Shown: piece by piece, positions 11,029-48,210 of the stretch
How the letters are laid out: every line of letters begins with the position of its first letter
Numbering within the stretch: the first letter of the stretch is position 1
Assembly: GCA_020847635.1 (NCBI GenBank)
Contig: JADLBQ010000009.1
Location: 1 to 48,210, forward strand
Source: Bacteroidia bacterium
GTDB taxonomy: Bacteria; Bacteroidota; Bacteroidia; AKYH767-A; OLB10
Length of the DNA: 48,210 nt
Direction: 5' to 3'
Translations under genes and position numbers: made by a program
Notes under the pieces: model-generated
Told to the model about the DNA's origin: nothing
Seen by the model: the letters and a program-made list of their open reading frames with translations, nothing else
Databases searched by the model: none

Positions 11029-12423
<1,395 letters not shown>

Positions 12424-12535: not shown

Positions 12536-13912
12536 ATGGAATTCAAAACTATCATTGAACCATTTAAGATCAAATCAGTCGAGCCTATTTTTCTTTCAAC
12601 TGAAAGAGAGCGTGAGGAGTACCTGAGGCTAGCTCATTTTAATCCTTTTCTGCTTCGCTCAGTTCATGTTACTATTGATTTTCTCACCGATAGTGGAACT
12701 TCTGCTATGAGCAGTGAACAATGGGCCGGCATGATGCGCGGTGATGAGTCGTATGCGGGAGCACAAAGCTGGGAACGATTGGAGGCTGAAGTGAAAAGCT
12801 TGACTGGATATCCTTATGTTATCCCTACTCATCAGGGCAGAGCTGCTGAGCGAATTCTCTACGGTCACCTCGGAGGTAATGGAAAAACATTTATCAGTAA
12901 TACCCACTTTGATACTACCCGTGCTAATATAGAATTTAGCGGAGCAGAGGCAATTGATATCCCTTGTAAGCAGGCTGAAGACCATGAATCTGATTATCCT
13001 TTCAAAGGGAATATGGATACGGCTAAGTTAGATGCATTACTAAAACAATATGGAAAGGATCGAATTGGTGCGGTTATTCTGACAGTTACCAATAATACCG
13101 GTGGTGGTCAGCCAGTCAGTATGACAAATGCCAGAGAAGTATCAACCCTTTGCAAAAAGCATGGTGTAATGTTTGTCATTGATTGTTGCCGGATTGCAGA
13201 AAATGCGTATTATATCCGTCATCGGGAGAAAGGTTTTGAGTCAACCAGCTATCGCGACATTGCTGTTGAGATGTTTTCATTAGCTGATGGTGCGGTTATG
13301 AGTGCCAAAAAGGATGCCCTGGTGAATATGGGTGGATTCATGGCATTGAAAAATCAGGAGCTTGCTACAGCCTGTACAAACCTTTTGATTATTACAGAAG
13401 GATTTGCAACGTATGGCGGGCTCTCAGGCAGAGATATGGAAGCTATGGCAATTGGCCTTCGGGAAGTCTTTGAAGACGGCTATTTAAAATACCGGGTTAA
13501 AAGTACAGCATATCTTGGGGAGCGGATTCGAGCAAAAGGAATTCCTGTAATGTATCCAATAGGCGGCCACGCTGTTTATGTGGATGCAGGATTACTTTAT
13601 CCGCATATCCCAGCTCATGAATATCCGGGCCAGGCATTAGTATGTGAACTTTACCGGATTGGTGGCGTGAGAGCCGTTGAAATCGGTTCGGTAATGTTTG
13701 GCAAATACGATGCACAAGGGAAATTAATACCTGCTCCGATGGAACTGGTCAGGCTTGCCATTCCGCGAAGGGTTTATACTCAAAGTCATATTGATTATGT
13801 CATCGAAGTATTTGATGAAATAAGTAACAGCCGGTCAGCCGTTAAAGGACTGAAGATTGTTAAAGAACCTCAGTTTCTTCGTCATTTTACAGCTCATTTT
13901 GAAAAACTTTGA
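12536..13912 (+). CDS. tnaA: Tryptophanase
   Basis: The 458-residue PLP enzyme converts tryptophan to indole, pyruvate and ammonia. Diagnostic motifs are [31 protein letters not shown], the PLP lysine in VMSAKKDALVNMGG, and VRAVEIGS and LRHFTAHF near the C-terminus; the Ile in VEIG and the His in RHF are the tryptophanase versions of the tyrosine phenol-lyase residues. It is a clear but diverged paralog of the divergent neighbour. No TnaC-like leader peptide or permease gene lies beside it. Together with its neighbour it lets the cell degrade both Trp and Tyr, releasing indole and phenol. Confidence 0.92.
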   Translation: MEFKTIIEPFKIKSVEPIFLSTEREREEYLRLAHFNPFLLRSVHVTIDFLTDSGTSAMSSEQWAGMMRGDESYAGAQSWERLEAEVKSLTGYPYVIPTHQGRAAERILYGHLGGNGKTFISNTHFDTTRANIEFSGAEAIDIPCKQAEDHESDYPFKGNMDTAKLDALLKQYGKDRIGAVILTVTNNTGGGQPVSMTNAREVSTLCKKHGVMFVIDCCRIAENAYYIRHREKGFESTSYRDIAVEMFSLADGAVMSAKKDALVNMGGFMALKNQELATACTNLLIITEGFATYGGLSGRDMEAMAIGLREVFEDGYLKYRVKSTAYLGERIRAKGIPVMYPIGGHAVYVDAGLLYPHIPAHEYPGQALVCELYRIGGVRAVEIGSVMFGKYDAQGKLIPAPMELVRLAIPRRVYTQSHIDYVIEVFDEISNSRSAVKGLKIVKEPQFLRHFTAHFEKL

Positions 13913-43985: not shown

Positions 43986-44004
43986 CAGTTCAACCCGAAT
44001 AATT

Positions 44005-44160
44005 ATGGCTAAAAAAGTTGTTGCAACGTTAAAATCAGGGAAGGGAAAGGATTTTTCCAAAGTCATTAAAATGGTAAAGAATGAAGCTACCGGCTCTTAT
44101 TCGTTTAAAGAAGAAGTGGTTCATAACGACCATGTAAAGGACTTTTTAAAGGGTAAATAA
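44005..44160 (+). CDS. DUF4295 small basic protein
   Basis: The 51-residue, Lys-rich protein (MAKKVVATLKSGKGKDFSKV ... VKDFLKGK) matches the short DUF4295 proteins found between L33 and FtsY genes in Bacteroidota. It has no Cys and its function is unknown, but linkage and basic nature suggest a ribosome association. A terminator follows it. Confidence 0.85.
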   Translation: MAKKVVATLKSGKGKDFSKVIKMVKNEATGSYSFKEEVVHNDHVKDFLKGK

Positions 44161-44181
44161 TTGATGTATTGAACGGCAGAG

Positions 44182-44217
44182 GCTTCTTTCCTGACGGGGA
44201 AGAAGCTTTCTTTTTTA
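44182..44217 (+). terminator. Terminator after the rpmG-DUF4295 unit
   Basis: GCTTCTTTCC (44182-44191) pairs with GGGAAGAAGC (44197-44206) through nine Watson-Crick pairs and one G-U, with a 5-base loop, followed by TTTCTTTTTT. ftsY starts 21 bp further, so read-through may still occur. Confidence 0.75.
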
Positions 44218-44237
44218 CTGTGAATTAATTGAGCATT

Positions 44238-45203
44238 ATGGCATTGTTTGGATTGTTTTCAAAAGAGAAAAAAGAAAGCCTTGATAAGGGGCTTGAAAAG
44301 ACCCGAACCGGTCTTTTTTCAAGACTGGCAAAAGTCATTGCCGGAAAATCTACTGTTGACGACACGGTGCTTGATAATCTTGAAGAAGTATTGCTTTCAA
44401 GCGATGTTGGGGTTCAAACAACATTAAAAATTATTGACAGATTGCAAAAAAGGGTTACCAAGGATAAATATGTCGGAATGGAAGGATTGCAGGCGTTATT
44501 AAAAGATGAAGTCAAACTTTTGCTTACTGAACGCGAAGAAGAAAGTAAATTACAAAATCCATTTGAATCTGCTGTGAAGCCTTATGTCATTATGGTTGTA
44601 GGGGTTAACGGAGTCGGCAAGACAACAACAATCGGTAAACTGGCATTTCAGCTTAAGCAAGCCGGGAAAAAAGTATTACTGGGAGCTGCCGATACCTTTC
44701 GTGCTGCAGCAGTTGACCAGCTTACAATCTGGAGTGAAAGAGCCGAGGTCCCATTGGTGTCACAAGGTATGGGTGCTGACCCGGCATCAGTTGCTTTTGA
44801 TACGGTGAAGACGGGTTTAACACAGCAGGCAGATGTGATTATTATTGATACAGCAGGCCGGTTGCATAACAAAGTCAACCTGATGAATGAACTCTCAAAA
44901 ATTAAAAGGGTGATACAAAAGGTGATTCCTGAAGCCCCGCATGAAGTCTTACTTGTGCTGGATGCATCAACAGGTCAGAATGCAATTGAGCAGGCAAAAC
45001 AATTTACTGCAGCAACTGAAGTTAATGCTTTAGCCTTAACAAAACTTGACGGAACTGCCAAAGGTGGAGTGGTTATTGGTTTGTCAGATGAATTTAAAAT
45101 TCCGGTTAAATACATCGGAGTAGGTGAGAAGAAGGAAGATCTTCAGCTCTTTGATAAAGCTTCTTTTGTAGATGCTTTGTTTAATACCTCAATAAACGGT
45201 TAA
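44238..45203 (+). CDS. ftsY: Signal recognition particle receptor FtsY
   Basis: The 321-residue protein (ATG 44238, MALFGLFSKEKKES) has a short N region and a full NG GTPase domain: GVNGVGKTTTIGKLA (P-loop), DTFRAAAVDQL, DTAGRLHN and TKLDGTAKGG. It docks the SRP-ribosome complex at the membrane for co-translational insertion. The acidic A domain of the E. coli protein is absent, as is usual in this phylum. Confidence 0.96.
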   Translation: MALFGLFSKEKKESLDKGLEKTRTGLFSRLAKVIAGKSTVDDTVLDNLEEVLLSSDVGVQTTLKIIDRLQKRVTKDKYVGMEGLQALLKDEVKLLLTEREEESKLQNPFESAVKPYVIMVVGVNGVGKTTTIGKLAFQLKQAGKKVLLGAADTFRAAAVDQLTIWSERAEVPLVSQGMGADPASVAFDTVKTGLTQQADVIIIDTAGRLHNKVNLMNELSKIKRVIQKVIPEAPHEVLLVLDASTGQNAIEQAKQFTAATEVNALALTKLDGTAKGGVVIGLSDEFKIPVKYIGVGEKKEDLQLFDKASFVDALFNTSING

Positions 45204-45256
45204 CCTTCGATTTAAAATCACCATTCCGGATGGAAACTATATAAAAACAAAATAAA

Positions 45257-45736
45257 ATGGAAGCCAGATCAACAGACACAAAAACTTTTCAATTGACCGA
45301 CAATGGGCAATTATTAGGTGAGCTGATTTACAAAAATTTGTTTTCTGATAAAGCCGTGATCAGATTGACAAACTCAGAAGAGTATGAGATTAAGCCTGTC
45401 GGAATTTTCGGTACAAGTATTACAGTGACAAAAAACGAAACAGAAATTGCCAGTTTGAAAATGAACTGGCGTGGCCAGATTGTGATTTCATTTCAAGACG
45501 GGCAAGCATTTATATTGAAGGCAAAAGGTACATTTTACAATAAATTTATTATTGAAAATAAAGACGAAGAAAGAATGATTCAGTTTGATCCACAATTTAA
45601 TTGGAGTAAATTTAACCTGAACTATGAAATTTCGTTTGACAAAAAGCCGGATGATATTTTATTTATTTTACTCGGTGTATATGCTTCCAATTATTTTATT
45701 GCTACCATGACAGGGGTGGTTGCATGTACCGTGTAA
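45257..45736 (+). CDS. Protein of unknown function with C-terminal hydrophobic helix
   Basis: The 159-residue protein consists of beta-strand-rich sequence in the first 130 residues (QLTDNGQLLGELIYKN, YEIKPVGIFGTSITVTK) and one hydrophobic helix at the end (LFILLGVYASNYFIATMTG). There is no signal peptide. I do not recognise the family; the pattern resembles LURP/tubby-like beta barrels with a tail anchor, which is only an impression. It is the last intact gene before the decayed region. Confidence 0.65.
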   Translation: MEARSTDTKTFQLTDNGQLLGELIYKNLFSDKAVIRLTNSEEYEIKPVGIFGTSITVTKNETEIASLKMNWRGQIVISFQDGQAFILKAKGTFYNKFIIENKDEERMIQFDPQFNWSKFNLNYEISFDKKPDDILFILLGVYASNYFIATMTGVVACTV

Positions 45737-45879
45737 ACAGCAGGATCATATTAAGTACTAATTCAGGCTGCCGGTTCACAAGTGGAAAACAAGAGTAAGG
45801 ATTTTAGAATTGCATTGCTTAGTTAAAACAGAATAATTGTCAATGTAATTTTTAACCATCTTAAATGTAAAGATTAGCT

Positions 45880-46940
45880 ATGAAATCACTATTTGTCAGT
45901 CTAAGTATCCTTATCGTCTTATCATCTTTAAAACTATTATCGATTACAGAAAAAGTTAGCATGATATGTTTTCAGAACACTCAGCTGGAACTGGTCTTGA
46001 ATACGGAGTTAGCTAAAAAAACAAGTAAATTGATCCACTTGTACGCTTCAGTTCTTAATTTTAAGCAAGGCAACCACCTGGTACTTTAACAGATGAGAAA
46101 TCTCATGTCCTTCAAAGAAGAAAGCCAGGTTTGGATAGATGAATATCCTGATCTGAAATCTAATCTTGCCGATGAGTTTAAAATTGCGGATAAGACAATA
46201 GGAATTATCGATCATTACAGTAACTAGGAATAATACTCATCCGTTTATTTAGTAATTCAGGCTGTAATAGAAAACCAGGCTTTGTAGAATGAAATTGCCC
46301 GTATATTTAATTGTTACAGTGATGTCTTTGATACCCATTTTGAAAAATACTACCGCCTTTCCCCGGACTATTTTATAGAAAAATAAGATCAGTGTCAGAT
46401 CTGTATTGACTTCAGTAATGTATTGGTTTAACACTACCAGAAAAATTAATAACTCACTTTAACTGGATTGCTAAACAGGCAGAGAAACTGCTTACCAACA
46501 GCAACTCGGAAGACTATTTAAATTATTGCCAGACCACCAATAAGGTCATGGGTTAGGATTCTATAAACACCACAGATAATGCTACACCTTTTTAACGTAA
46601 TCATTTCAGTAAAACGAAATCACACCTAACATTACTGCGCTGGCTAAACAGAAAGGGTTCGATTTTTCAGAAAGATTAGGATGAAAATTCCGTTCTTTCA
46701 GTCATACCCGTTTCTGAAAGCTAAGGACGCTACCAGTGGGGTATCTGGAGGGCTAAAGGTGGAAATGTTATTCACAAAGCGTATGCCCCCTGAGACAAGA
46801 CTTTATTGTTACTTATAAAAACAATAATACCGGTATTTGCTATGCTGCCAGTATCATTCTTTACCACTTCAACCAGCCGAAATACAGTTTGGCTGCCAGC
46901 AGCCAAATTATATAATTTTGCTGTCAGACAAAAAACATGA
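45880..46940 (+). pseudogene. Decayed gene of unrecognised family
   Basis: Protein-like sequence continues in one frame from ATG 45880, where the start resembles a signal or membrane segment (MKSLFVSLSILIVLSSLKLL). It is broken by stops at 46087, 46225, 46231, 46285 and 46384. A frame change near 46410-46420 links to a second frame with LPEKLITHFNWIAKQAEKLL, QWGIWRAKGGNVIHKAY and WLPAAKLYNFAVRQKT, which has stops at 46554, 46593, 46677, 46722 and 46791. The last stop (46938-46940) overlaps the ATG of the next decayed gene by 4 bp, as in an intact operon. I cannot name the family. The start and the joining of the two halves are uncertain. Confidence 0.55.
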
Positions 46941-47874
46941 AAGAGTGGAAACAAATAGCAATAATTCAGAAGTTTATTTCCTGCTTGCCCCTCAGCAATC
47001 AAATCAATTACTTGTTTTAAAAGTATATTACTTAAGGTGTAAATCTGACAGATGAGTATTTCTTTGACTGGCTTGTACATGTACGGAATCTTCTCTGCAG
47101 TATTCAGAAATATTCAGGTAAAATATTCCTTTAACTTGTCTGGAAATCAGAACTAGCTGGTATCCGATTTTGGCTGTCAGTTGCTTCCTGACTGGTTCTG
47201 ACAAAGTTTATTTAGTTGACACCTCCTTACTGACTTAAAAAAAGCGATTACAAATTACATTACATAAATTTCTTGAATGTAACAATGCTGGCCGGTTAAC
47301 AGACTAAGTTAACATTCTGCCCGAACGGTTAGAAGTCATTACAAGTCTACTAACTGACTTTGACAAACTTTCTTTGGTAGATGTATTGCAAAAATTGAAT
47401 ATTATTTATCTCATTGGAGATGCAGGAAAACATCCATTAAGGAATAATTCCATTGACTTGCTAGGCTCAAATAACACTTTTGAACATATTTATCCTGACA
47501 TACGGATTCCCATTCTTATTGAGTTTAAACAGGTTGGAAAAAGAAAGGGTGGAGTAATGTCACACTTCATTGATATGTCAGACCACCTTGTGCATTCAGA
47601 CAAGTCAATTAATATTTACAATTTTCTTCAGTTCTCCGACAGACCGTGGAAATAGATTGGCAACACCATTCAGCCACAAAGCAGAATGAGAATTTATGCT
47701 TATAAGCGGATTTATCCTGATCTGAAGATTCTCATTTCGAAAGAATCATTCAGAAATGGAAACATAGACGAACTGAAAACAGTTTCACTAGCTGAAAAAT
47801 TTGCTAACAAACCACCTGCATAAATTGCTATAAGCCATTGCTATTTCATTTCTGATATGAATGGCATCAGTTAA
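46937..47874 (+). pseudogene. Decayed SAM-dependent methyltransferase gene
   Basis: About 312 codons of a class I methyltransferase can be read. It starts MKEWKQIAIIQKFISCLPLS at 46937, then GVNLTDEYFFDWLVHVRNLL, the SAM motif region LEIRTSWYPILAVSCFL, LPERLEVITSLL, YLIGDAGKHPLRNNSIDLLG, FEHIYPDIRIPIL, HFIDMSDHLVHSDKSINIYN, and an end at ISHCYFISDM. Six in-frame stops interrupt it (47018, 47033, 47236, 47305, 47653, 47821). One frameshift near 47118-47122 fits loss of one A from a short A-run (GGTAAAATATT). The terminal TAA is 47872-47874. The middle part alone is open from 47308 to 47652. Methyltransferases of this type often sit in polysaccharide loci; the substrate is unknown. Confidence 0.82.
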
Positions 47875-48069
47875 TATGAAACAAAAGCACATACTGCCGG
47901 CAAAGCCTGTTGCTTGCAGAAAGTGTATGGTAAATTCATGTGTTGTTTCCTGTTTTATTTTTGTGCTGCTGACCGGTTAGTAATTTGAAGTCTCAGCCTT
48001 TGCCAGTATGTCTATCATTAGCAGGAAGTATCGGTTAATACAAAAAGAGGAACAAAAGGAAAGTTGATC

Positions 48070-48210
48070 ATGGAATTCAAAATCAGACCATGGAAAATGT
48101 CAGACCTGGCTAGTTTGGTCAGATATGCTAACAATGTGAATATCGCAAAAAATCTGACTGATCAGTTTCCCTATCCTTATACTGAAACAGACGGCAGAGC
48201 ATTTATTGAA
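48070..48210 (+). CDS. GNAT-family N-acetyltransferase, N-terminal part (cut by window edge)
   Basis: The last 47 codons of the window open with MEFKIRPWKMSDLASLVRYA, then NNVNIAKNLTDQFPYPYT, the usual first strand and helices of RimJ/RimL-like GNAT acetyltransferases (a variant of the RPWxxxDAxxLxxYANNxxI pattern). The acetyl-CoA motif would lie beyond the window. A purine-rich stretch (AAAAAGAGGAACAAAAGGAAAG) with possible ribosome site lies just upstream. Confidence 0.8.
   Translation, partial: MEFKIRPWKMSDLASLVRYANNVNIAKNLTDQFPYPYTETDGRAFIE

Follow-up and report, generated by a model that had tools for sequence, protein, structure and literature searches.

A dead methyltransferase gene in a probably acquired, decaying gene block after ftsY in a Bacteroidia genome

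Near the end of contig JADLBQ010000009.1, from a Bacteroidia bacterium (assembly GCA_020847635.1), a methyltransferase-like reading frame is interrupted by a series of stop codons. Is this a gene that has died, an intact gene that was badly read, or one that still works in part, and how did it come to lie a short distance after ftsY? We are confident in the following answer: it is a dead methyltransferase gene in an accessory block that was probably gained horizontally and in which two genes have since been decaying. We refer to the whole stretch of DNA analyzed (48,210 nucleotides) as the window. The features on which the argument rests are, in order along it:

44229 to 45203, plus strand: ftsY (SRP54-type GTPase), intact; the left flank, beyond which synteny with the sister species is lost
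45257 to 45736, plus strand: intact open reading frame of 159 amino acids, function unassigned, found in distant Bacteroidota families
46000 to 46909 as aligned (46915 as outer right limit), plus strand: second pseudogene, of an unrelated uncharacterized protein family, disrupted by nine stops and by two frame changes
46937 to 47874, plus strand: pseudogene of a class I SAM-dependent methyltransferase; its roughly 312 codons contain six in-frame stops and a single net frame change, and the glycines of the presumed SAM-binding motif are lost
48070 to 48210, plus strand: start of a GNAT acetyltransferase-like gene, open; the right flank, cut by the contig end

The methyltransferase frame can still be followed from end to end. 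Its six in-frame stops lie at 47018, 47033, 47236, 47305, 47653 and 47821 (five TAA and one TAG), each exactly where a preliminary description of this DNA had placed it in a single legible frame, and the frame closes at 47872–47874. The closest intact relative that we found, L057, from a Bacteroidales MAG (SLOS01000390.1), shows 56% identity to codons 1–62 of the pseudogene (counted from 46937) and 67% identity to the 252 codons from 47125, the latter without gaps and at 340 bits. The preliminary description had proposed aligning the frame to intact relatives, and the alignment turns out to be collinear with L057 apart from the stops and one frame change. At this frame change, two bases stand opposite one L057 codon, so that one base is lost on balance, as had been described; we place the event at about 47108–47127, an interval in which the exact base is not fixable, and the repair within an A-run that had been put forward is a plausible placement only. 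Both parts of the pseudogene are matched by an intact family member from elsewhere in this genome, with E-values of 2e-53 and 2e-12, which excludes a chance match. Homology to intact genes is thus combined here with a disabled reading frame, as in other bacterial pseudogenes. The relatives also agree with the origins suggested for individual stops. The stop at 47653, attributed to a TGG-to-TAG change, falls on a column that holds Trp in 19 of 23 intact relatives; a CAA-to-TAA change had been expected for at least one of the others, and one further stop indeed falls on a column that holds Gln in all 23.

All evidence on the locus comes from a single assembled genome that is a draft of 94 contigs, with the block close to the end of one of them, a setting that would suit an intact gene broken by sequencing or assembly error. 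The lesions, however, are mostly substitutions that extend over the whole gene and include the loss of invariant residues, and the adjoining gene has nine stops while the nearby ftsY and the 159-amino-acid frame stay open. We regard error as an extremely improbable explanation, in line with the earlier judgment that the lesions are no sequencing artifact, being too many and chiefly substitutions; they are also too spread out.

What the gene encoded can be read from its intact relatives. A scan of genome contigs gave 131 relatives, of which we kept 80; 79 of these are labeled Bacteroidota in the broad sense (one is Kapaibacterium), and the exception, L095, is labeled Thermoanaerobaculia. The family was sampled at 85 loci, with 83 open reading frames that match an intact member; 78 are full-length and intact, 76 of them distinct, and our alignment A3 holds 58 intact full-length members. 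The Pfam domain Methyltransf_11 (PF08241) was found above its cut-off in all six intact relatives scanned. The longest open piece of the pseudogene itself (47308–47652) matches this domain weakly, with an E-value of 0.001 and 20.1 bits versus a cut-off of 21.2. The predicted model of L057, made from alignment A3, has a mean pLDDT of 92.9. Among the 50 PDB matches listed for this model, E-values are 1.6e-8 and weaker, with a probability of 1.00, and TM-scores range over 0.37–0.46 by query and 0.26–0.65 by target; the TM-scores being modest, L057 would share only the methyltransferase core with these structures. The titles of the same 50 listed matches name a methyltransferase in 31 cases and give only a protein name (NNMT, NTMT1, YcgJ and the like) in 19, and none names another enzyme class. 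The nearest solved chain by sequence is 2p8j.

Methyltransferase ancestry is thus indicated twice, by the sequence domain, through the intact relatives, and by the Rossmann-type fold of the predicted L057 model. Homology and this predicted fold identify the ancestor of 46937–47874 as the gene of a class I SAM-dependent methyltransferase; the Bacteroidota family to which it belongs has no curated name. The likeness to class I SAM-dependent methyltransferases (PF08241) lies in the intact relatives, which pass the domain cut-off, and in the methyltransferase-like fold predicted for L057; the differences are that the window copy is dead and that no NCBIfam family stood above the cut-off for the methyltransferase proteins scanned. 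Gene context gives no substrate: open reading frames of at least 100 codons were clustered across 83 loci, many of which have short flanks, and except for the methyltransferase itself no cluster is shared by more than 5 of the 83.

Apart from its stops and one base deletion, the gene had been described as otherwise well preserved, which proves too strong. Our first set of invariant columns was taken from 23 intact rows: two of them, L075 and L078, form the sister pair, and the other 21 come from the pseudogene's own 24-row clade, which has 23 intact rows; the two left out, L090 and L091, are long-branch members of that clade. Of the 88 invariant columns scored with this set, the pseudogene has changed at 16 and no intact row at more than 4 (leave-one-out). 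With the full clade (all 23 intact rows), 13 of 75 invariant columns are changed in the pseudogene, versus 9 of 85 in the most affected intact row, which is L090. Adding L075 and L078 to the full clade leaves the pseudogene at 13 of 75 and puts the most affected intact row at 7 of 83. The pseudogene ranks first in the loss of invariant residues in every row set, by a smaller margin when L090 and L091 are included. Both glycines of GTG in the motif LE(I/L)GTGWYP, which we take to be SAM-binding motif I, are replaced in the pseudogene; every one of the 58 intact rows of A3, among them L090, keeps both. The stretch 46937–47874 has neither the intact reading frame nor the glycine-rich SAM-binding motif of a functional methyltransferase, and it would yield no such enzyme now.

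Could the gene still function, with its stops read through or recoded, and perhaps be a divergent family member such as L090? The family pattern is kept over long stretches between stops, and at conserved bases intact L090 has diverged to a similar degree. Against this, a frame change is present as well, two stop types are in use, neighboring open reading frames end normally under table 11, and the GTG glycines, which even L090 retains, are gone; we give this possibility hardly any credence. A truncated product that is still made and useful could come, for example, from the 115 open codons at 47308–47652, which hold many conserved motifs, are identical to L057 at 80 of 115 residues and include the weak Methyltransf_11 match. 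Invariant columns, however, are lost at 6 of 35 inside this piece versus 10 of 53 outside it (Fisher p = 1.0), and the damaged GTG motif lies outside it. Because the losses do not cluster outside this longest open piece, a retained fragment is very unlikely, and we continue to read the whole frame as that of a dead gene.

The drift at conserved bases bears on how the gene decayed. Where at least 90% of relatives agree on a base, the pseudogene differs from them at 17 of 144 first and 24 of 192 second codon positions when the first set is used, and at 17 of 138 first and 22 of 186 second positions (about 12% each) when the full clade is used. We considered this equal drift at the two codon positions as a proof of neutral decay and rejected it, since it is matched by intact L090, which departs at 20 of 142 first and 28 of 195 second positions (about 14% each); the other intact rows depart at 0–10%. 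Part of the pseudogene's drift may predate the loss of the gene. The chance that a substitution creates a stop is 0.044–0.051 for the methyltransferase (kappa 2), and by hand calculation a drift of about 12% over about 930 bases, if all unselected, would give about five stops, with six seen. The stops are about as many as the total drift at conserved bases would give, which is no proof of neutrality; we infer that the decay was probably neutral. Among first and second positions that are 95% conserved, 33 of 286 are changed, by 21 transitions and 12 transversions. G/C became A/T at 13 of 92 columns and A/T became G/C at 14 of 194, and per available site there is therefore an A+T bias (rates worked by hand). 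Third codon positions differ by 44–53% between the intact pairs compared, so that silent change is near saturation, too near for a formal branch dN/dS.

The tree resolves the pseudogene to its 24-row clade and to no finer position. Its end branch has a length of 0.54, which among the clade's 23 intact rows is exceeded only by L087 (0.60), L091 (0.59) and L090 (1.16); the other 20 have shorter ones. An intact methyltransferase of the same family, L003 (G000:C19:4586-5521), is present in the same genome on another contig and sits on a different branch of the tree. It falls outside the pseudogene's clade (28-row clade, support 99/92) and is therefore not a recent duplicate of it.

The methyltransferase gene is not the only dead gene here. 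Directly upstream lies the second pseudogene, which was overlooked in the earlier reading of the sequence. In a search of 395 genomes, its own included, the piece 45880–46224 matches intact proteins of 346–369 amino acids in G108, G199 and G067, which are distant Bacteroidota of other families of the class. Weak matches of this piece in G383 and G140 (E-values of 0.005–0.008) were set aside as chance. A frameshift-aware alignment of 46000–46909 to the L138 protein has 123 of 291 residues identical, with one codon gap per side, and scores 548 versus 32–43 for ten shuffled proteins. The 5' end of this pseudogene may reach to about 45880. Judged by eye, the N-terminus of its protein resembles a signal peptide and looks secreted; a search for its family in Pfam and NCBIfam gave nothing above cut-off. 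Both reading frames are destroyed, and since the second pseudogene adjoins the first, the locus is a decaying block rather than one killed gene.

The intact 159-amino-acid frame has no match in any of the 15 same-family and 9 same-order genomes tested. It occurs in 16 of the 395 genomes of the class, own included, with 67–69% identity in G388, G067 and G199. Two of these, G067 and G199, hold relatives of both this frame and the upstream pseudogene, and the frame is likely part of the same presumably acquired block. One homolog, L146 (G054:C64:13984-14454), is interrupted by six in-frame stops within the matching part and may be decayed there too. On the left flank, the ftsY gene of the sister species G001 is 86% identical and is followed by a convergent gene, which we take to be nucleoside-transporter-like; the window genome carries its relative on contig C4 (71%). 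G001 gave no match to the methyltransferase, the 159-amino-acid frame or the upstream piece. On the right flank, the GNAT label comes from L039 and L040, which are intact relatives; the 47-amino-acid fragment itself has no Pfam match. We found no Rfam match over 44000–48210, only short imperfect repeats of at least 16 bases over 45200–48210, and no tRNA in the window. Far from this locus, two neighboring and divergently transcribed open reading frames of the window, 11029–12411 (minus strand) and 12536–13912 (plus strand), look to us like tryptophanase/tyrosine phenol-lyase paralogs.

Was the block gained, or did the ancestor of the family already carry it, with loss in every relative sampled? 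The methyltransferase family does occur across Bacteroidota, and one genome of the same order, G039, has a member, as an ancestral block would predict. The gene of the methyltransferase pseudogene, however, is absent from all 23 other genomes of the same family, and the relatives found of the 159-amino-acid frame and of the upstream pseudogene sit in other families of the class; we consider an ancestral block unlikely. Absence in near relatives together with presence in distant ones is the distribution expected of a failed horizontal transfer, and this patchiness, with the break in synteny to the sister species, suggests that the block was gained horizontally. The preliminary description had the methyltransferase gene lose its function by point mutation after acquisition: its death and the predominance of substitutions stand and the acquisition is plausible, but the otherwise good preservation that it claimed does not hold, given the invariant residues lost.

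We therefore favor horizontal gain, which would have proceeded as follows. The lineage would have gained a small accessory block after ftsY, consisting of the 159-amino-acid frame, the uncharacterized gene and the methyltransferase gene, probably by horizontal transfer. Selection on two of the block genes would then have ceased, and these two, unselected, would have collected point mutations and a few frame changes.

Events of this type have been described before. The locus resembles the prokaryotic pseudogenes of failed transfers, as presented by Liu et al. (2004; PMC522871), in its stops and frame change, its patchy distribution and its absence from near relatives; it differs in that two unrelated neighboring genes are dead and that the lesions are mostly substitutions. 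The methyltransferase pseudogene is probably one more failed-transfer pseudogene in their sense. In Salmonella, short indels and premature stops are among the commonest lesions of pseudogenes, and old pseudogenes are reported to be scarce (Kuo and Ochman 2010, PMC2916853). Premature stops and short frame lesions are found here too; in contrast to that scarcity, the lesions of the present pair are numerous, and by their count the two genes may be old.

Taken together, the two adjacent dead genes have 15 stops versus three frame changes. With a rate of about 0.045 stops per substitution, measured for the methyltransferase only, 15 stops would imply some 300 substitutions for three frame changes. 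Frame changes seem few here compared with bacterial pseudogenes in general. This is only a mildly unusual point, from one locus in one assembly. If real, it could reflect an unusually low rate of small indels in the lineage, or a pressure, acting for instance on spacing or transcription, that protects old dead DNA against deletion, a suggestion that we hold to be quite improbable.

Gain and decay of this block would be an event of a known and ordinary kind, a failed horizontal transfer. Neither family has a curated name in Pfam (beyond the general domain) or in NCBIfam, and the locus consequently adds little beyond marking gene gain after ftsY in this lineage. What it offers is a well-delimited case of a probably acquired gene block that is decaying mostly by point mutation.
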